The position numbers and the translations under genes are program-made. A model generated the notes under the pieces. It searched no databases. It worked only from the letters and a program-made list of their open reading frames with translations, and was not told where the DNA came from. A stretch of DNA of 29,209 nt. Origin: a virus. Positions within the stretch are counted from its first letter, which is position 1, and each line of letters opens with the position of its first letter. Location of the stretch: positions 1-29,209 of IMG/VR virus record IMGVR_UViG_3300030329_000871; one strand, written 5' to 3'. Below are positions 16,971 to 27,432 of this stretch, in pieces.

Positions 16971-17686
16971 TAAGCGGACTTCCTTTCAATCAATGTGTCT
17001 GCATAAAAAGTTGCTTCATCAACGAATACGTCAGTTACCTCTTGTTCAGTTGGGATGCTATTTGGCCAAGGCTTTTGCGTGACTGATTTCTTCAGCAAAT
17101 AGTAAGGCGTAAAACCGGATTCCTCCTGCATCGTTGGGGTTTCGCGCTCTGGAACCTTTAACCCTAAAGGCTTGTTCTCCCTGCGTGGCCTAGTGGTATT
17201 TGGCAGCTTACGCTTTGCTTCCTTCTTTGCGTTGAATTTTCTTTGTGGAGGGTTACCGCTCGGCTTGTCTGGCTTAACAAGAAGCAGATTGCCTTTCTTT
17301 GATTTAATAACGAAAAGGTCATCAAACCTTCTTGCACTTCTATCGTATGCCTCTGGATGTACCGGAATCGTAAGGTACTGCACCCGCTTCGCAGAGATTG
17401 TCCCGCCCTTAACTTTGTGCGGAAGAATTGGGCTGCTTATTGCCACAACCACTCTGCCCCGCCCCTCTGTTTTTGGATTATTAACAGTATTGCCAACCTT
17501 ATTCCAAAAGTTTGTCCTTCTGCTTGGGTTTAGCTTGTTAGGCTCGTTGGCGTTTTTCTCACGATAGAACTTTCTGAGGTAATTGGAAACGCCCCTAGCA
17601 CCAACAGTCAGAACATCATTTAGTTCCTTTTCGGTAAGCTGCATCTGGTTAATGCCAGAGGGAAGTTCTACACGGGTTTGCATCAT
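16970..17686 (-). CDS. Putative virion morphogenesis protein (gpG-like)
   Basis: This 238-residue basic protein lies between the portal and protease genes, where Mu-like phages have gpF and gpG. The N-terminal part (LTEKELNDVLTVGARGVSNYLRKFYRE) and a strand-rich middle (GRVVVAISSPILPHKVKGGTI, VQYLTIPVHPEAYDR) fit the phage virion morphogenesis (gpG / tail completion) type, although the long basic insert of residues 130-185 is unusual. It overlaps the portal stop by four bases (ATGA) and the next start by one. Such proteins finish the head-tail joint. The family assignment is moderate. Confidence 0.5.
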   Translation of the reverse strand: MMQTRVELPSGINQMQLTEKELNDVLTVGARGVSNYLRKFYREKNANEPNKLNPSRRTNFWNKVGNTVNNPKTEGRGRVVVAISSPILPHKVKGGTISAKRVQYLTIPVHPEAYDRSARRFDDLFVIKSKKGNLLLVKPDKPSGNPPQRKFNAKKEAKRKLPNTTRPRRENKPLGLKVPERETPTMQEESGFTPYYLLKKSVTQKPWPNSIPTEQEVTDVFVDEATFYADTLIERKSA

Positions 17687-19356
17687 ACCGGCGATTCCTC
17701 CAGTTTAGCATCCGGCGAGGCCTCAAAGCGTTTTACCGCACCGTTAACCATTGCTGCGCCCATGTTGCGCTCCATTGCATCCTGCAACACCCTTGTGTCC
17801 AATTTATCAAACAGTTCCGGCATTGTACTTGCCGCCTTGTTTACTGCCCTTTCAAAATCAGCATCCGAAACCTTGTCATCCATTGCTTTGCTCACCAGTT
17901 GAACAAAGGCGGGTTTTACTGGGGCAAGCCACGCCTCGCTTACTCCCGTAATATCCTCAATGACATTGTTAAGCAGTTTGTCCCTTGGCCCCGGTTCTGC
18001 GCGTTCAGCTTCCACAACTCCCTCTTTGGCAAACATGGGGGGCTGCATTGGCGCAGGCTCCGGCGGGGTAATGATTTCCTCGCCTGTTTGGGGCATTGGA
18101 ACATCGTGCCTGTCGTAGAACCATTCGCGAGGCATATCAATTCCACTACCCAAAAGGATTTGGTCACGCTGCGCTTCCAGCACAGGGTCACTTGGCCCCG
18201 CTAGGTCAGGCACTAAGGTTGGCATTTCATAATGATCGCCATAATTCAATTCGCAAATGGAGCGGATTAACTGCTCGTTAAGCACATCAGCCGCCCATTC
18301 ACAAACATCCTGCAACCTTGTCCTGCGAACATCTTCGTGAACATCGCCCAATGCTCTGCTGCCAGAATCTCCAACATCTGTTGTTAAGGTTTGCCCAAGA
18401 ATGGTGATGTCACAAAGTTTGTCCGCTAGGTTGATAAAATAGCTTTGAGGGTTGTCCTGCCCCGACTTGCCTGCCTCCTTGAACTCAACCTGTGTTCCTG
18501 CCGGGAAGGCTCCCCACGCTGCTGCTCCCATATTTTCCAACATGTCAGCAATGTCGTTCTTTATGTTTGCCGCTGCACCGGGGTCATAGGTTGCCCAACG
18601 CAAAGGCTGTCCGAAAACCTGTGCGAAGTTCAACAGCCAATCCCGGCAGTAATTTTGACCGCTCCACCAATAGGCTAACTGGCGCAAAAGGCCATACCCC
18701 ATTGAGTTGCCGGAACGGTTCTTGTAAATCCCAATCAGAAACTTGTTAGCTGGAAATTCCTCGTAAACCCCATCCCCTTGCGGCGACAGCATTAAGTCAG
18801 GACTGTCATACGGGAATGAGTAATAACGAGGGTGACAAAAGTAAGTTGAGGCGGGGCAGATACCTTCCGGCTTTACCTCCCAAAGTATTTCCTGCACGGA
18901 AAAGCCTTTGCCAACCCCATCGCATAAATCGTAAATGGCATTACGGAAGCCATTCGTGCCTTCAATCGGATTGCCTACCCAGTTATCAATCGCATACTGA
19001 ACAAAGTCGGCTTTCTCCTGCGCGGAATCTGTTGGCCTTTCTCCCCGCTCAGTAAAGGGCATAACGGTGTATGTTGCCCCTGCTGCTGCGCTTTTAAGCT
19101 CATGCAGATTCTTTGCTAACCTCGACCATGAGTCCTCCATTAACTCGTAGACTTGGTATTGTTGGCGAATATCCCCGCTTAAGGCGGCACGGAGTATGGC
19201 AATTACATTGGCTGGGCTTTGTTTGCTGCCCAGCGAATTGCTGTCCATGCGGTCACGGGTACTCGGCGCAACCACTCGTTTACCGATGCTTGTCCCGTTC
19301 GGTTCCTTCTTGGCACTAAACCAGTTGCCCAAGCGGTTACTTAATCCTGCAATCAT
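17683..19356 (-). CDS. Portal protein (Mu gp29-like, DUF935)
   Basis: At 557 residues this matches the Mu gp29 / DUF935 portal family: LMEDSWSRLAKNLHELKSA near residue 72, GKGFSVQEILWE at 149-160, RYYSFPYDSPDL at 177-188, and GQTLTTD..GSRALGDVH at 321-340 are its recognisable segments. Portals form the dodecameric ring at one capsid vertex through which DNA enters and leaves. Its ATG overlaps the terminase stop (ATGA), and its own end overlaps the gpG-like gene. The C-terminal 100 residues are helical and acidic/basic, as in other portals of the family. Confidence in the family is high. Confidence 0.88.
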   Translation of the reverse strand: MIAGLSNRLGNWFSAKKEPNGTSIGKRVVAPSTRDRMDSNSLGSKQSPANVIAILRAALSGDIRQQYQVYELMEDSWSRLAKNLHELKSAAAGATYTVMPFTERGERPTDSAQEKADFVQYAIDNWVGNPIEGTNGFRNAIYDLCDGVGKGFSVQEILWEVKPEGICPASTYFCHPRYYSFPYDSPDLMLSPQGDGVYEEFPANKFLIGIYKNRSGNSMGYGLLRQLAYWWSGQNYCRDWLLNFAQVFGQPLRWATYDPGAAANIKNDIADMLENMGAAAWGAFPAGTQVEFKEAGKSGQDNPQSYFINLADKLCDITILGQTLTTDVGDSGSRALGDVHEDVRRTRLQDVCEWAADVLNEQLIRSICELNYGDHYEMPTLVPDLAGPSDPVLEAQRDQILLGSGIDMPREWFYDRHDVPMPQTGEEIITPPEPAPMQPPMFAKEGVVEAERAEPGPRDKLLNNVIEDITGVSEAWLAPVKPAFVQLVSKAMDDKVSDADFERAVNKAASTMPELFDKLDTRVLQDAMERNMGAAMVNGAVKRFEASPDAKLEESPV

Positions 19357-20672
19357 ACCAAGGTCGGCCTTAATCCTGCCAATTTAGCTCGGCCAAGGAT
19401 TATGTTGTCTGTCTCCTGTATCGCCCCTGTCCCTTGATTAAGCACCGATGCGTAGTTAGCCAAAGCCAAGGCGGTGCATCTGTCTGCATGGCCGTCAGCC
19501 CTTCGTAAAGCACGGTATTGCTTATTGCCCCCCGGCGTTGTCATTTCATTAACTGAATGCAAATCCTCGCGTATCGCACTATCCCTTGGCACTCGTAGGG
19601 TTCTTTCTTGGAAAGCCCTGCGTAAACCGGGGAATATCTTGGCCTTAAAGCCTTGCGTGAATGTGCATTGTTCCAGTTTATACTCAAAGCGATTGGCCAA
19701 GGATTCACTCACGGCGTTGCCAATGCCCGTTGAATCAATGGCTGCAAAGGATGCTTTGTTAATTCTGTCGGCAAGCAGTTCCTCCTGCAAATGGTAGGGA
19801 GTGTTTCGCAAAGCCAAAACCTCGCGTGTCCAAAAAACATCGCCCACCTTTTCAAGCGTCCAGCAAACAGTTAAGTCATGCTTTCGGCCAATATCAATTC
19901 CGACATAACGAACAGAACGCCCTGCTTCTTCATCGCACTCCACCGTAGCCTCGTCACTTACACAATCGTCAATGAGAGAGTAAGGCAGCAAAACATTGGC
20001 AGCGTCCACAAACTCGCATTCGTATTCCTGCTCCCAAGCATCTGAATCATCCAAGCCACGCTTTAATTCTTCAGCGTTCATTGGCAGGCCTTCCTCAATA
20101 GCTGAGTGAATGGTTGTTTTGTGGCGAACAAAGTTAAGCTCATCAGCTTTGTCCCATATCTCAAAGAATTTGGAATTACGCCCCGCTGGCGTGCTAATGA
20201 TTCTTATTTTTAACTCCCCGCGCAAAGGGTTGGAAATAGCGGGGTAAATAGCCTCATAAATACGGTCAGGCCTTTCGTGGAAAGCAAACTCGTCCAGCAC
20301 TAGGTTGGCTGAATATCCCCGCACGGTGTCAGGGTTAGCAGGAAGGGCAAGAATACGGGAACCATTAGAAAACCTCACCTCGCTTGTGCGACAGTCAGGC
20401 TTGTCCATTCCAAGAGCATCAGAAACAACCCTTGCAACCCTGTTCCCCTTCACCATCCATTCCTCGGACTGCCTCTGGCCTGCTGATAATACAACCCAAT
20501 CTGTGTTAGGCTTATCAGCACAACTGGCAACCGCTTCAAAAGCTGAACCCAATGAACCGCCAATTTGCCTTGATTTAAGCCAAATCTTAAAACGCGAATT
20601 ATCAGAAACCCATCGCTGTTGATACGGTAGCATCAACTTAAACAAGGCTTCTGCGCGTTTTTCTTTGTCCAT
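19353..20672 (-). CDS. Terminase large subunit (Mu gp28-like)
   Basis: This 439-residue protein is a packaging motor. The ATPase half shows a deviant Walker A (KSRQIGGS, 33-40), Walker B with catalytic Glu (LVLDEF, near 124-129) and coupling motif STPAGRNS (160-167). The nuclease half has an RNase H-type acidic set: Asp260 in GIDIGRKHD, Asp313 in AIDSTGIG, and Asp393/Asp397 in DGHADR. This order is that of Mu gp28-like terminases, which package headful DNA into the procapsid. Its ATG overlaps the terminase small-subunit stop and the portal follows with ATGA overlap, so packaging genes are one translational unit. Length is typical for the family. Confidence 0.92.
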   Translation of the reverse strand: MDKEKRAEALFKLMLPYQQRWVSDNSRFKIWLKSRQIGGSLGSAFEAVASCADKPNTDWVVLSAGQRQSEEWMVKGNRVARVVSDALGMDKPDCRTSEVRFSNGSRILALPANPDTVRGYSANLVLDEFAFHERPDRIYEAIYPAISNPLRGELKIRIISTPAGRNSKFFEIWDKADELNFVRHKTTIHSAIEEGLPMNAEELKRGLDDSDAWEQEYECEFVDAANVLLPYSLIDDCVSDEATVECDEEAGRSVRYVGIDIGRKHDLTVCWTLEKVGDVFWTREVLALRNTPYHLQEELLADRINKASFAAIDSTGIGNAVSESLANRFEYKLEQCTFTQGFKAKIFPGLRRAFQERTLRVPRDSAIREDLHSVNEMTTPGGNKQYRALRRADGHADRCTALALANYASVLNQGTGAIQETDNIILGRAKLAGLRPTLV

Positions 20673-21121
20673 CAGTTGTTTTCAACATTGGGCGCACCCA
20701 GCATTTCCCGCCAAGTACCCATCAAAGTCTTTTCATCAGTTATCAGATGGCCAGAATGCTCGACGTTCACCTCAGCTTTGTCACTAAATCCGCAGACGTT
20801 CTTTAGGGCAAAAATTAAAGAAACAACATTGTCTTTTTCTAAAGCCTGCTGAACCAACTTACGTTTAAGAGAAGTTCCCAGCTTGGCCCTGCCCTTTTGA
20901 TAGGCCACGCTAAACTCGCTTTCCTTGTCGCGCATTTGGCGATCAATAACATCATGGGAGCAACCAAGCAAAGTACCCATTTCAGCCTTGGTGGCATTCA
21001 AACCGCCCAGCCTTTCAACTAGGTCTAGGTCGAAAACTATCCTTGGCCTGCCGCCGGGATGTTTGCCGTTATCTGCTGGGGTAGGGGATGTGAGTCGCTT
21101 GCCTGTTGTCGCTCCTGCCAT
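20672..21121 (-). CDS. Terminase small subunit-like protein
   Basis: The chosen start (MAGATTGKR) gives 149 residues. After a Lys/Gly-rich lead with GGRPR, a helix-turn-helix stretch (ERLGGLNATKAEMGTLLGCS then DVIDRQM) is followed by KESEFSVAYQKGRAKLGTSLKRKLVQQALE, a pattern seen in small terminase subunits, which recognise the packaging site on phage DNA. It is directly upstream of and overlaps the large subunit by one base. A TTG start at 21163 would add fourteen hydrophobic residues and is less likely. No clear ribosome binding site is seen for either start. Role is well supported by position and the helix-turn-helix. Confidence 0.8.
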   Translation of the reverse strand: MAGATTGKRLTSPTPADNGKHPGGRPRIVFDLDLVERLGGLNATKAEMGTLLGCSHDVIDRQMRDKESEFSVAYQKGRAKLGTSLKRKLVQQALEKDNVVSLIFALKNVCGFSDKAEVNVEHSGHLITDEKTLMGTWREMLGAPNVENN

Positions 21122-21180
21122 TTGCAAAAGGAATGATTGCAAGCAAAGAAGGGCAGTAATCAAATACTAATTTAAGTCAA

Positions 21181-21444
21181 TTAAGTATGATTCTGCAAAT
21201 TTGAAGAAGTATTTTTGGTTTTGAAGTAATTATTTAGGTCATCGCGCAGGATTATTTTCTGTCTGCCTGCTAAAAGGGCATCAATTTGGCCCAGTTTAAT
21301 CATCATTTGAACACGGTAGGGAGTGATTCCAATAAGTTTTGCAACCTCTGGAACGGAGTAGGAAGGTTTTGTTAAATTAGTGTGCAACTTATCTCTTTTT
21401 GCGGTGTTAGTGGATTCTTTTATATTACGATTAAACTCCTGCAA
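21181..21444 (-). CDS. Helix-turn-helix protein (excisionase or MerR-like fold)
   Basis: An 87-residue protein with a central winged helix-turn-helix: YSVPEVAKLIGITPYRVQMM with a following IKLGQIDALLAGRQKIILRDDLNNYF, the layout of phage excisionase/MerR-like DNA-binding domains (about residues 29-75). Such proteins are DNA-binding regulators or recombination directionality factors. No integrase is in the window, so an excisionase role cannot be assumed. The start used is a TTG overlapping the glycosyltransferase end by 14 bases; the first 20 residues may be missing if translation begins at a later TTG (Leu20). It lies upstream of terminase small subunit. Confidence 0.6.
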   Translation of the reverse strand: MQEFNRNIKESTNTAKRDKLHTNLTKPSYSVPEVAKLIGITPYRVQMMIKLGQIDALLAGRQKIILRDDLNNYFKTKNTSSNLQNHT

Positions 21445-22192
21445 TCGGCACCTTGATTATTGGATTTATGTCGTAACTGGCCTGTTTATCGGCTCCAGCC
21501 TTGCTTCCATTGTCGCGTTTAACTATTTTGCCGCCCCACTTCTTTTGCAAGGCATCAAACTGGTCTTTCTCTCTCTGAATGGTGCGATAATCTGCACAAC
21601 CTCCTTTGTTGGTGTGCTGTTTAACAAAATAAAACAAGAAGTTGATTCTTAATACTTTGCGATATTCATTAGCTGCTTGAAGAGTAAGGTCATAATCCTC
21701 TTTGAGCGGTAATTCTTCATCATACCGCAATTTGCATTGATCTGCTAAAAAGGCTTGGAAAGGGCCACCTATGTAATTGTTAAATGAAAATGGCGTATAT
21801 TCTCGGTAAGCACCTTTATCTGGTATGCAATTAACTCCCCAAAAAGGAGTTTTGCATTGTTCTGCTAATAAGAAACCAAGTTCGACAGCTTCAGTTGCTT
21901 CATCTTCATTCAGTTTTTTCTGTTGGTTCCCGTTCCATCTGCCAAGTGCGGAAAGGTCATCGTCAACAATTAGCAGCCATTTGGTTGGGCAGTTATCAAG
22001 TATCCAATTTCTCACCCTGCAAAGGTTTCCCTGAGCAGAGTCTGGGCATTCCCAAACTGGTAAATCGTTGCTTCGGTAATCATCTGCTTGGCTTTTACAA
22101 ACAACATATTGCACATTGCTAAAGTATTTGTGCGTAAATGCGCTGTCTGCGCGCTTCCAACTAGGTGCAGCAATGGTAAGTCCCTTTTTCAT
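21431..22192 (-). CDS. Phage glycosyltransferase, TET-associated type
   Basis: This 253-residue protein has a GT-A-like layout: N-terminal MKKGLTIAAPSWKRAD, then NLCRVRNWIL, a metal/sugar-nucleotide DDD at 77-79 (LLIVDDDLS), GGPFQA (142-147), KEDYDL (164-169) and a late His (QHTNKGG). This resembles the TET-associated glycosyltransferase group found in phages with modified DNA bases. The enzyme would use an activated sugar to modify a base, or a host glycan. It begins directly after the ParB-like gene and precedes the helix-turn-helix protein. No hydroxymethylase or TET-like gene is in this window, so the base target is unknown. The GT family is likely; DNA as substrate is inference. Confidence 0.65.
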   Translation of the reverse strand: MKKGLTIAAPSWKRADSAFTHKYFSNVQYVVCKSQADDYRSNDLPVWECPDSAQGNLCRVRNWILDNCPTKWLLIVDDDLSALGRWNGNQQKKLNEDEATEAVELGFLLAEQCKTPFWGVNCIPDKGAYREYTPFSFNNYIGGPFQAFLADQCKLRYDEELPLKEDYDLTLQAANEYRKVLRINFLFYFVKQHTNKGGCADYRTIQREKDQFDALQKKWGGKIVKRDNGSKAGADKQASYDINPIIKVPIAGV

Positions 22193-22195
22193 CGC

Positions 22196-22843
22196 CTAGC
22201 CTTTGCCTAAACTGTTTATGTAACTAGCCCCATCAACCACCCTGCCAACCCCTTGCGACCACGGCTTGCCGTTCTGGCGCTTCGCAGTAACCGTTTCCAG
22301 ATTAAAATGAGTCTGTGCAGCTAGCCAATCAATGTCATTGTCAAATTTAAGCACAATGTAGTTGTTAGATTCACTTATCGCTTCGGAAAACTTAACTTCA
22401 CCTTCTACATCCTCCTGCTTTAGCTCCAGCAACTTGGAAACCTCATCGTCTCCAAATCCGGTTAGCTCCATGTCATAACCTTGATCGCTCAGGCCAGATA
22501 ATAATTCAGACAATTTGTCATCGCTTAAGCCAGAAAGCTCTGCAATACGGTTATCCGCTACTAGGTGAGCATATTCATCAGCGTCGCTTGCAAACTCCTG
22601 CACATCAACCGGAACATTTTGCACATTCAACAGCTTGGCTGCCTCCAGCCTTCCATGTCCCGAAACAATAAACCCGGTTTTTTTGCTGACAACAATTGGG
22701 CTGCGCCATCCTGAGTTTCTGATGATTTTAGCCAACAAAGCAATCTGCTTGTCAGGGTGTTTGTTTGGGTTTTGGGGATGTGGGACAAGATTAACCACAT
22801 CTTCCATTTTTGTGTGTTTGCAATGGACTGCTATGTCACTCAT
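22196..22843 (-). CDS. ParB-like nuclease-domain protein
   Basis: A 215-residue protein with a ParB/sulfiredoxin-type N-terminal domain: V.HPQNPNKHPDKQI (22-34), GWRSPIVVSKKTGFIVSGHG (45-63), then RLEAAKLLNV and DNRIAELS (97-104). These are the conserved boxes of the phage ParB-like family. The C-terminal part (residues about 160-215, YIVLKFDNDIDWLAA...GKPWSQGVGRVVDG) is a small extra domain. Phage ParB-like proteins often sit next to a DNA methylase; here the neighbour is a glycosyltransferase. There is no ParA, so partition is unlikely. It may guide or license base modification, but that is inference. Confidence 0.75.
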   Translation of the reverse strand: MSDIAVHCKHTKMEDVVNLVPHPQNPNKHPDKQIALLAKIIRNSGWRSPIVVSKKTGFIVSGHGRLEAAKLLNVQNVPVDVQEFASDADEYAHLVADNRIAELSGLSDDKLSELLSGLSDQGYDMELTGFGDDEVSKLLELKQEDVEGEVKFSEAISESNNYIVLKFDNDIDWLAAQTHFNLETVTAKRQNGKPWSQGVGRVVDGASYINSLGKG

Positions 22844-22848
22844 TTTTG

Positions 22849-23112
22849 TTAGTTAGTTTGTTTATTAACCGGAAATTGCGCTTCGTCTGGGATTGGTATT
22901 TCCAAAAGCTGCTCAAGTGTGGGGTGGGGAGCCGTTAATTCCTCCCAATAGCCACGGGCCAAAATTGACTGCAAATTAAAAACAGGCCACCTAATCTTGT
23001 CATCCCAATCAACCACTTGCCCCAATTCTTCATCTGTTTGAATCAAATATGCTTCTTGGTCTTGCTGTGCAATTATCTTCGGAAATTCACTTCCTACTTG
23101 TCTTGTTGCCAT
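22849..23112 (-). CDS. Unknown 87-aa protein after MuF gene
   Basis: This 87-residue acidic protein starts MATRQVGSEFPKIIAQQDQ and has no family known to me. It has Trp/Asp-rich parts (GQVVDWDDKIRWPVFNLQSI) and ends in a Pro/Glu-rich stretch. Its start overlaps the end of the MuF gene by 19 bases, so the two are translationally coupled. Because the MuF gene has a toxin-like C-terminal domain, a partner or immunity role is a possible guess but there is no motif for it. It precedes the ParB-like gene by a few bases. Confidence 0.5.
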   Translation of the reverse strand: MATRQVGSEFPKIIAQQDQEAYLIQTDEELGQVVDWDDKIRWPVFNLQSILARGYWEELTAPHPTLEQLLEIPIPDEAQFPVNKQTN

Positions 23113-24878
23113 TTTATTCCTTTCTTTTTTAATTGTTCTTTAAGTTCTGGCGTAACATCAAAATCAGCAGGGAAAAACACCTTGCTAATATCATCAGTTG
23201 TAACGCCACCATGCACTTGCATTTCTACATACCTAGAATTGTCTACATCTTGCGTTTCTAGGGAGTCCATCATTCCAGAAATGTCCTTTGTTAAAAACAA
23301 TGACTTTTGTGAAGCATTGTTCATTGGGCTTGGCAACAAGTAGTCGATTGAACCTAGTGAATCATCAAAGGTGATTGTTGCCCTGTTTCTGGCTCGATCT
23401 TTAAGCCTTATCCGAATACGTCCATACATCGAAACTGGGTCAAACGTGCTTTTTGGGTCTCTTGGGTTTTTGTAAACGCCTTCCTTTGTCGGACTTGCAT
23501 ACCCATAAATTGGCCTATCTTTTGGGTTTAAGTTCTCATTATACTTAAACGCTTTGGTTTCGTAATCTGCTCTGATTCTTGGGCTATATGTCCCCCCGCT
23601 GCTTTCAGTTTCAAACTGAGATTTAAAGCGACCATCCTTTAGGATTTTTGTAAGTGTTCCCTTTTTAACCCTAACAAAAGGAGTGGCATCATCAGCCCAT
23701 TTTTTTGCTCTTTTAGACAGTTCGGCCTTAATTTGCTCAACTGTAACTGGCCTTGGCCCAAATATCCCAACCTGTTTTTTTATCCAATTTGGAGCCTTTG
23801 TAAGTTGCTTTTCTTTTACGATAGCATCAAGCCGGTAGTTATAGCCAGAAACGTAAGCGTCATATTGTTCTTGAACCCTTACTTCTCTTTTTTGCGAAAC
23901 CCAACTTTGCGGCTCCGGTGTTTCAAACTTCTCTGGCTCAGGCAATCCCTTAATGACCATCTGCTCAACTTTGGGAATTGGCTTGGCCGGTTTAGGCGCA
24001 GGGACATCGCTCATTTTTTGAGCTAATTCCACCGTCTCGCCATAATTGATGGCATCAGTCCCCAGCTTATCCATGAACTTTTCAAGAAATTCAGCCTCAA
24101 CGTCTGCTGCCGCTTTTAGCCCCTTGTTAAACGTATCGTCAGGAGGCAGCACTTGTTCATTTTTCTCAATTAAGCCAAGGCGAATAGCTTCGTCGCGCCT
24201 TACATCCTCCACATCCATGCCGCTATTAAAGCCCCAAGGGCCAAACGGAACGCCAAAGCCTCCGATGCTTTGGTTATTCATTCGCAACCAAAACTCCATG
24301 TCATCCTTTCGGCGCACTTCATTCCGGTTTTGCTCATGCAACGGGCGAGGAACTTTTCTCTGCTCTGCTCTGATAAAACGCTGGGCCGGATAAGCGTCGA
24401 GGATAGCAGGGTCTTGCCCCTGCTTGTAATATCCGTATGCCTGCGCCTGCTGCGTTTGAGTGTCAAAGATTAGTTTCAGCCTTGATTCACTAGCCACATC
24501 CTTCATGCGGGTAATTAAGTCGCGGCTCATATCGGTGCCGGGGGGCAGGATATTTCCAAGGCCTGTCTCCTTGGCCAGCTTTTGCATCTTGTAAATGAAA
24601 TCGGCCCGTGATGCTTTTTTTAAGGCTGTGACCTTCCTGCCGTCTGGCGTTGTGACTGTTTCCCTTGCCCCCGAAAGGTAATCCTCCAGCATCTTTTTGG
24701 ATTTGTTAAGGAACTTCATGCTTTCAACATTGCTGGTAAAATAAGCCCTTTCTCTGATTGCCGTGGGCATTGCTGCCCATTGCTTACTGCTTAATTTCTT
24801 AGCGATTGGTTTCTTTTTGCCAAGTCGCCTTACCGCATCCAAAAACTTAAGCGGTTTTATTAAAATCTCTAACGCCAT
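23094..24878 (-). CDS. MuF-like head protein with C-terminal ART-like (DUF3626-type) domain
   Basis: At 594 residues this is much longer than a plain MuF head protein. Residues about 35-240 resemble the MuF / SPP1 gp7 head morphogenesis domain (MPTAIRERAYFTSNV, SRLKLIFDTQTQQAQAYGYY, FIRAEQRKVPRPLH). Residues 290-330 are a Pro/Lys linker. Residues about 400-570 look like the DUF3626 / ADP-ribosyltransferase-like domain: LKDGRFKSQFETESSGG (Arg417), PIYGYAS (456-462), ARNRATITFDDSLG (496-509) and YVEMQVHGGVT (Glu552, Gln554, His556). MuF proteins fused to toxin domains are a described phage family. The head gene is far from its usual place behind the portal. MuF part confident; catalytic activity unproven. 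Confidence 0.65.
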   Translation of the reverse strand: MALEILIKPLKFLDAVRRLGKKKPIAKKLSSKQWAAMPTAIRERAYFTSNVESMKFLNKSKKMLEDYLSGARETVTTPDGRKVTALKKASRADFIYKMQKLAKETGLGNILPPGTDMSRDLITRMKDVASESRLKLIFDTQTQQAQAYGYYKQGQDPAILDAYPAQRFIRAEQRKVPRPLHEQNRNEVRRKDDMEFWLRMNNQSIGGFGVPFGPWGFNSGMDVEDVRRDEAIRLGLIEKNEQVLPPDDTFNKGLKAAADVEAEFLEKFMDKLGTDAINYGETVELAQKMSDVPAPKPAKPIPKVEQMVIKGLPEPEKFETPEPQSWVSQKREVRVQEQYDAYVSGYNYRLDAIVKEKQLTKAPNWIKKQVGIFGPRPVTVEQIKAELSKRAKKWADDATPFVRVKKGTLTKILKDGRFKSQFETESSGGTYSPRIRADYETKAFKYNENLNPKDRPIYGYASPTKEGVYKNPRDPKSTFDPVSMYGRIRIRLKDRARNRATITFDDSLGSIDYLLPSPMNNASQKSLFLTKDISGMMDSLETQDVDNSRYVEMQVHGGVTTDDISKVFFPADFDVTPELKEQLKKKGIKWQQDK

Positions 24879-26233: not shown

Positions 26234-27106
26234 TCAAGATAATGCATTCTGCTTTTCTTCATCTTTTAATTCTCTGAGCTTAATCTTTAACTGCTTAAAC
26301 TCGGCCCTTGCCTTTTTGTCCCCTGACACGCAATAAGTTGATTCAGGGTTGCCGGGGTGCTTATCAAGCTCCGAAGTCAAAACTTCAATTCGCTTCCATA
26401 ACGGCATAGCAGCAGCAGTTTTAACCGCGCTGCCATTTGCTTTTCTTTCCATTGGCCTGCCATCAGATTCCCACCATGTTTTGACTCTGGTCAGAAACGC
26501 TTTCCAATTTACAACTACGTCGCCTTTGTAAATCCACCCTTTTGCCTCCATATCGAGCCACCAATCCTCTGCACGCCATTCTACCAAGCCAATCTGCCCA
26601 GCGTAATCAATCACCTCCTGCCTTGCAGGAATCTCTCCAGAGTGAGTGAGTCTATTAGAAGTAGGAGTAGAAGTAGAAGTGTTGCCATTTGGTTGCAAGC
26701 AATCCTCAACCGGCTCGCTTGAACCACCGTTAGTACCACCCTTGGAACCACCGTTGCCATCAATTTGGGATTTCTTTAACAATTTTCTCTTTTCTGCTGA
26801 TTTGCGTCCTCCCTCTCTTGACTTCTCAACCCATCTGTTTCTTTCAGCGCGAATGGCCTCTAGCCGATCATGCACTAGCACATCCCCCTTTGGCTGAAAC
26901 ATGGTTGACACTTTGGTTGCAAGGGTGGTTGAAGCACCCTTACCAATGAGCCTCGCAATTTGTTCTGGGTCTTTTGGGATGCTCCCAGACAGCCAACAAT
27001 GGCAAAGCAGGCGAACGTATGCCCCTTCTTCCTCAAGAGTCATCAACGTAACTCTTGAACTTGAAAGGTAGTCCCCTGCATAGAATTGAAACGCCGGAGC
27101 TTTCAT
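26234..27106 (-). CDS. DUF1376 replication protein with DnaT-like C-terminal part
   Basis: From the start chosen here the protein has 290 residues. Residues 1-95 are a full DUF1376 domain (FQFYAGDYLSS, LTLEEEGAYVRLLCHCW-type core, LI.K and FQPKGDVLVHDRLEA). A Gly/Ser/Thr/Asn-rich linker (about 115-150) leads to a C-terminal part (EVIDYAGQIGLVEWRAEDWWLDME, VVVNWKAFLTRVKTWW) like phage replication organisers and DnaT-type primosome proteins. It probably binds the phage origin or helps load helicase. The start is fixed by AAGGAGGTG six bases upstream and an ATGA overlap with the upstream DUF1376-like gene; a start seven codons earlier is less likely. Confidence 0.75.
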   Translation of the reverse strand: MKAPAFQFYAGDYLSSSRVTLMTLEEEGAYVRLLCHCWLSGSIPKDPEQIARLIGKGASTTLATKVSTMFQPKGDVLVHDRLEAIRAERNRWVEKSREGGRKSAEKRKLLKKSQIDGNGGSKGGTNGGSSEPVEDCLQPNGNTSTSTPTSNRLTHSGEIPARQEVIDYAGQIGLVEWRAEDWWLDMEAKGWIYKGDVVVNWKAFLTRVKTWWESDGRPMERKANGSAVKTAAAMPLWKRIEVLTSELDKHPGNPESTYCVSGDKKARAEFKQLKIKLRELKDEEKQNALS

Positions 27107-27432
27107 GTCTTCACCTCCTTGTTCCATCTTGCATTAGCTACTTTGCGCATCTGTTCGCTTTTGTCTTCCGCCTTTTTGCGGGCTTCATCCAGCACAGGGC
27201 AAAACAGCTTACCGTCCTCTGTCTTTTCAAAATGCTGACTAACTTTTGGCCAAACACTTTGCAATTCTCCGACTGAACACCCCGCCAATCTGGCGAGGCT
27301 TAATGTGTCAGATGGCAATTTGCCTGCCTGCCAGCAATGGCATTGAAGGCGCACATAACAACCAAGCTCTGACAGCGTGAATAGCACCATATTCGTATCT
27401 GTAATCATTTTATTTGGGTCTATTTTAATCAT
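27103..27432 (-). CDS. Short DUF1376-like paralogue
   Basis: This 109-residue protein aligns with the DUF1376 part of its downstream neighbour: LFTLSELGCYVRLQCHCWQAGKLPSD, LARLAG and a C-terminal KVANARWNKEV that fits the usual end of the domain. It lacks the N-terminal FYxxDY part and any C-terminal domain. Two adjacent DUF1376 genes suggest duplication and divergence. It overlaps the upstream winged-helix gene by eight bases and the downstream gene by four, and has GGAGA before the ATG. It may dimerise with, or regulate, the longer protein; that is inference. Confidence 0.65.
   Translation of the reverse strand: MIKIDPNKMITDTNMVLFTLSELGCYVRLQCHCWQAGKLPSDTLSLARLAGCSVGELQSVWPKVSQHFEKTEDGKLFCPVLDEARKKAEDKSEQMRKVANARWNKEVKT

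Follow-up and report, generated by a model that had tools for sequence, protein, structure and literature searches.

A terminase-linked ParB-like protein and a TAGT-family glycosyltransferase as a probable DNA-hypermodification cassette of phages

The sequence studied here, hereafter the window, is the whole 29,209-nt stretch of a virus record (29.2 kb, possibly a fragment), with the genes described below on its minus strand. In transcription order, it encodes a ParB-like protein (22196-22843 (-), 215 aa), a glycosyltransferase (GT; 21431-22192 (-), 253 aa), a small HTH protein (21181-21444 (-)), the terminase small subunit TerS (20672-21163 (-); PHROG 309, E = 7e-7), the terminase large subunit TerL (19353-20672 (-); Pfam Terminase_6N/6C), and the portal (17683-19356 (-)). 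The GT gene starts 3 nt past the ParB stop codon. A previous sequence-only reading had identified the first two genes by their motifs as an adjacent pair beside the terminase, and both ORFs were indeed found with all six motifs (NPNKHP, SGHG, and DNRIAELS in ParB; VDDD, GGPFQA, and KEDYDL in the GT), directly upstream of TerS and TerL, the two downstream neighbours conserved in relatives. Megablast of the region against phages gave no match.

The GT had been proposed to be of the TET-associated type (TAGT), and it matches the corresponding Pfam family (PF20691) with 39.8 bits, above the curated cut-off of 27.5 (E = 6e-10), as well as PHROG 842, annotated as ‘beta-glucosyl-HMC-alpha-glucosyltransferase’ (E = 2e-15). 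NCBIfam had no match for this protein and the GT profile found no relative among PDB sequences. Its AlphaFold2 model (pLDDT 89.8) has a GT-A fold, and the best viral structural matches include TAGT-annotated phage proteins and a Klebsiella phage beta-glucosyl-HMC-alpha-glucosyltransferase; the enzyme sides with phage TAGTs and not with capsule or glycan enzymes. The DDD motif (D77-D79, 21956-21964 (-)), invariant in 53 aligned relatives, corresponds to the metal/nucleotide-sugar DxD site of GT-A enzymes. A profile built on window-type loci also retrieved the T6 ggt protein (61.6 bits), a TAGT known to put glucose on DNA bases (PMC13216743). Both enzymes share the Pfam family, the GT-A fold, and the DDD motif, but T6 ggt adjoins a dCMP hydroxymethylase among replication genes and acts on hydroxymethyl-C DNA, whereas the window GT, without hydroxymethylase or TET, is tied to a ParB with a special C-terminal module and lies by the terminase. 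TAGTs of known chemistry act on hydroxymethylated or previously glucosylated bases (PMC13216743).

The window ParB scores just below the cut-off of Pfam ParB_N (24.4 against 26.3 bits) and has only sub-threshold ParB matches in NCBIfam, but PHROG ParB families match it with E = 6e-37 and its family profile matches Spo0J, Noc, and ParB in the PDB (E = 4e-11). The predicted fold of its N-domain and helical HTH-like part (aa 9-147, 22403-22819 (-)) resembles Noc (7ng0: Z 13.9, rmsd 2.5, 132 residues aligned) and CTP-analogue-bound ParB (7bnr: Z 13.5, rmsd 3.2, 135 aligned). By N-domain sequence and fold, this ORF therefore belongs to the ParB/Srx superfamily, and the HMM searches and structure predictions suggested for both proteins have yielded a TAGT of GT-A fold and a ParB/Noc fold. 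Canonical partition ParB proteins are marked by a GERR-type CTP motif; the window-type group has GHGRL, GGNMR, or GGHQR instead, and no ParA partner was noticed among those window genes that were searched. The C-terminal ~60 aa make up a conserved unit of their own, the C-module (~aa 152-212, FSEAISESNNYIVLKFDNDIDWLAAQTHF...KRQNGKPWSQGVGRVVDG, 22208-22390 (-)), with residues invariant in 56 relatives, no match in Pfam, and low confidence in the structure model. PADLOC, run on the pair, matched the ParB part alone and labelled it MTase_II.

Both genes are coupled in relatives. In a ParB-seeded scan of viral contigs (56 loci), the GT follows except in two loci that end at the contig edge. Conversely, all 66 loci with upstream DNA recovered by GT-seeded scans of viral contigs and bacterial genomes carry a ParB with the C-module, the genes abutting or overlapping in 48 and being separated in the other 18, mostly by one inserted gene. 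A seed made of the C-module only led to 78 new loci (some of their contigs overlap the earlier sets), and all 78 have the GT downstream. These counts, which apply to relatives with at least ~36% identity to the window GT, place the pairing beyond chance, so that we rejected a fortuitous adjacency. Genomic copies were found in hosts that include Planctomycetota, Verrucomicrobiota, Bacteroidota, Spirochaetes, and Bacillota, and the complete Streptococcus prophage Javan291 is an annotated isolate with the pair. When neighbouring ORFs of 150 loci were clustered, ParB-GT-TerS-TerL was the sole broadly conserved neighbourhood. Other TAGTs (T6, Brevibacterium LuckyBarnes, and Vibrio pv27) lack a ParB neighbour, and their genomes carry thymidylate-synthase-like genes. 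The sequence-only reading had called for such a survey, and as the GT groups with phage TAGTs and the pair is conserved, two of the three outcomes that it had named as contrary, a grouping with capsule or glycan enzymes and a pair restricted to this phage, are absent.

Pairwise identities in 40 non-redundant loci (Spearman correlation, 1000 permutations) reveal a mosaic structure within ParB. The N-domain co-varies with TerS and TerL (rho 0.69 and 0.70, reached by 0/1000 permutations) but not with the GT (0.08), whereas the C-module co-varies with the GT (0.40, 0/1000 permutations), which itself does not follow the two terminase subunits (0.04 and 0.08). The N-domain and C-module, although equally adjacent, correlate less with each other (0.25) than the C-module does with the GT, and a sliding comparison along ParB places the change of co-variation partner at the domain junction. 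The N-domain is therefore part of the phage backbone, and the C-module and GT form one mobile cassette. The C-module-GT correlation could reflect a docking module, adjacency accounting for part of it; on this basis, we infer that the C-module docks physically to the GT.

Comparison with a related phage record (L014) delimits this cassette at the DNA level. Both share the same phage backbone, with ~77% identity over 6.9 kb downstream of the cassette and 67-79% upstream, start of parB included. The similarity ends at position 22532 of the window and returns at 21409, so that the exchanged segment (21410-22531 (-)) consists of the C-terminal half of ParB and the GT. In its place, L014 has a distant TAGT and a TET dioxygenase (Tet_JBP protein), and its ParB ends in another tail. 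TAGT-TET contexts were reportedly first described by Iyer et al. in 2013. Such TET/JBP clusters (ParB-TAGT-TET in L014, ParB-TET-radical SAM-x-TAGT in the record L142) share ParB and TAGT with the window but include TET and a different ParB tail, both absent from the window cassette.

A second kind of exchange involves DNA methylases. ParB-DNA methyltransferase fusions (PHROG 498), found in Streptococcus vb_Spy_7 and Javan117, Psychrobacter pOW20-A, and Faecalibacterium FP_Lagaffe, have an N-domain homologous to that of the window ParB (46% identity with FP_Lagaffe), and those of Spy_7, pOW20-A, and Javan117 lie upstream of the terminase, in the same slot. They carry a fused N6/N4 methylase, in contrast with the separate GT and the ParB C-module of the window, where no such methylase (PF01555) was found and the slot holds the GT; N6/N4 methylases were detected in 3 of 48 records searched. 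The Javan291 ParB, partner of a GT, is 66% identical over its first 128 aa to that of Javan117, fused to a PF01555 methylase just upstream of the terminase, and diverges afterwards. L014 and four ParB-methylase fusions share a clade with the N-domain of the window ParB (support 97/100), which, together with the Javan exchange, bears out the proposal that a GT has replaced the methylase. On a tree of 33 ParB N-domains, the effector types show no clustering: 14 effector changes are required, versus 15.4 on average after shuffling, and 42/200 shuffles gave as low a value.

Other relatives have genes inserted between ParB and the GT, encoding FkbM-type and class-I methyltransferases, radical SAM/SPASM proteins, or a second TAGT-like enzyme. 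One locus (L058:9494-10873) encodes a single protein made of a ParB C-module and an FkbM-type methyltransferase, with a degenerate ParB N-domain. In L142 (1253-5356), L141, and L144, ParB, a TET/JBP oxygenase, a radical SAM/SPASM protein, a 300-aa protein without Pfam match (FATMRRSGSHFCMHR), and a TAGT follow each other in what is apparently an operon for multi-step base hypermodification. The cultured cyanophage P-HS2 of Prochlorococcus has, shortly before its likely terminase genes, a row of three genes, all annotated as hypothetical (L166:3432-5556), for ParB, an FkbM methyltransferase, and a weak TET/JBP-like protein, the last scoring 26.8 bits against Tet_JBP, below the cut-off. In a Microbacterium Quhwahvirus (L061:6984-9379), ParB, a small ORF, and a TAGT-like GT are followed by a UDP-glucose dehydrogenase-type protein, hinting at a dedicated sugar donor.

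Sister ParB-TAGT pairs occur in E. coli 666R9 and Rac-type prophages, Lactobacillus phi jlb1, Haloarcula HHTV-2, Nocardia NTR1, and Porphyromonas 005b. Like the window pair, they lie upstream of the terminase large subunit; unlike it, they have a ParB tail of the type RHxVFDF..IAEYYAHA..ALVIIDYD and a longer, distant TAGT (12-13% identity). No TET, thymidylate synthase (TS), or C5-methylase was found in the complete genomes of 666R9 and the four other named phages, the synthase search being positive in T6 and pv27. Of 5,426 complete E. coli genomes, 885 (~16%) contain the 666R9 pair with a coverage of 80% or more, located in a Rac-like prophage in which the GT is annotated as ‘hypothetical protein’. 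In such prophages (L174:12001-13717, NZ_CP023820.1), the pair, with ParB as ynaK and a TAGT matching PF20691 with E = 1e-34, lies beside trkG. In the prophage of MG1655, a shortened ynaK (87 aa) precedes ydaY, and no TAGT gene comes after it. Haloarcula hispanica tailed virus 2 provides an archaeal pair (L170:3196-4858), whose ParB tail is the same as in the E. coli and Lactobacillus phages.

We consider that the window pair is probably a phage DNA-hypermodification cassette, in which a terminase-linked ParB platform works with interchangeable DNA-modifying effectors, here a GT. The ParB-like N-domain, inherited with the terminase genes, would bind or load on phage DNA, and the C-module would recruit the GT. 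This enzyme would glycosylate DNA at a late stage of infection, close to packaging, and thereby shield it from host nucleases. The platform would, in relatives, bear fused N6/N4 methylases, a TET oxidase plus a GT, or extra decorating enzymes such as a second GT, an FkbM-type or other methyltransferase, or a radical SAM enzyme. The GT family, the phage context, and the fact that the cassette is exchanged for DNA methylases and TET suggest that DNA is the acceptor; an anti-restriction role of the cassette is likewise something that we infer.

The GT might instead modify a protein (ParB itself, TerS, the portal, or the capsid), the ParB-terminase linkage then representing a packaging-regulation complex. 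Such an acceptor would fit with the lack of an encoded base hydroxylase and with the constant presence of the C-module and the terminase genes as neighbours, and polypeptide GalNAc-transferases rank high among the fold matches of the GT (Z 14.3, rmsd 4.1, 222 residues), a resemblance at the GT-A level only. Nevertheless, we judge it improbable: N6/N4 DNA methylases and TET oxidases, whose substrate is DNA, also occupy this slot, DNA is the known target of one TAGT member, and the GT shows no co-variation with the terminase (rho 0.04-0.08), in contrast to what is expected of an enzyme whose substrate is conserved. The idea of a capsule-type or surface-glycan (lysogenic conversion) GT located by chance beside a partition ParB finds some echo in the cell-wall polymer GT-A enzymes TarS and TarP, which are among the best Foldseek matches in the PDB. 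It is disfavoured as highly implausible, given that phage TAGTs match far better (E 8.5e-19 versus 5e-07 for the cell-wall enzymes, values obtained with different libraries) and that ParB coupling extends to every locus of both reciprocal scans, with genes mostly abutting or overlapping; family, fold, and this obligate coupling led us to reject a capsule or surface-glycan enzyme.

Within the preferred reading, that of a DNA-hypermodification cassette, the GT could act on a pyrimidine of a familiar kind, hydroxymethylated or hydroxylated by some enzyme of the phage or its host that escapes the profiles used, with no new chemistry involved, which we find rather doubtful. The sequence-only reading saw no hydroxymethylase or TET in the window, and profile searches of this 29.2-kb, possibly fragmentary record agree: TET, thymidylate-synthase-like hydroxymethylases, and C5-methylases gave no match. 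An enzyme may have been missed because most window-type records are fragmentary, and distant oxygenases can escape Pfam models, as the P-HS2 score illustrates. However, among 50 records, Tet_JBP (PF12851) was found in 7/7 of L014 type and in none of window type, so that the search detects TET where it is present. Thymidylate-synthase homologues were limited to LuckyBarnes among the same records; C5-methylases occurred in three records, one of them of window type. 2OG-FeII_Oxy_6 had no match in any record, controls included, so that its absence carries no weight here. Moreover, the complete genomes of Javan291, 666R9, jlb1, HHTV-2, and NTR1 have no TET, thymidylate-synthase, or C5-methylase match, and only the terminases recur in most loci besides the pair, which argues against an undetected hydroxylase consistently nearby. 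A hidden hydroxymethylating gene was sought by profile searches of whole records and clustering of neighbouring ORFs, with nothing consistent emerging. With no known hydroxymethylating enzyme in window-type phages, the acceptor, a base or another group, would either stem from an undetected hydroxylating activity or be an unconventional one. It is conceivable, although we advance it only tentatively, that window-type phages glycosylate DNA without hydroxymethylation, ParB and its C-module positioning the TAGT enzyme on a canonical base or another unconventional acceptor. We know of no earlier description of a sugar placed on such acceptors without prior hydroxymethylation. If true, this hydroxymethylation-free glycosylation would extend to the TET-less ParB-TAGT pair of about one sixth of complete E. 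coli genomes.

Phage DNA hypermodification is well known, and the window would represent a variant with an unexplained chemical step; a ParB near TAGT or TET genes may already have been mentioned elsewhere. Our results suggest a standard ParB-like socket maintained beside the terminase by phages whose hosts comprise many bacteria and at least one haloarchaeon; recombination within parB would insert different DNA-modifying enzymes into it. They also provide a candidate partner and targeting subunit for the solitary TAGTs, regarded as potentially novel transferases by a 2026 survey that counted them in 288 of 753 phage genomes (PMC13216743). The chemical question that they raise, namely what a TAGT uses as substrate where no hydroxymethyl base is made, is directly testable because isolated phages and common E. 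coli prophages carry the pair.

Two other regions of the window deserve mention. A 594-aa protein (23094-24878), kept in the closest relatives, has a weak match to DUF3626 (28.1 versus 27 bits) and matches to PHROG 8314/220. At 26234-27432, two neighbouring ORFs with related, primosomal-protein-like N-termini fall in one sequence cluster, an arrangement resembling a duplication.
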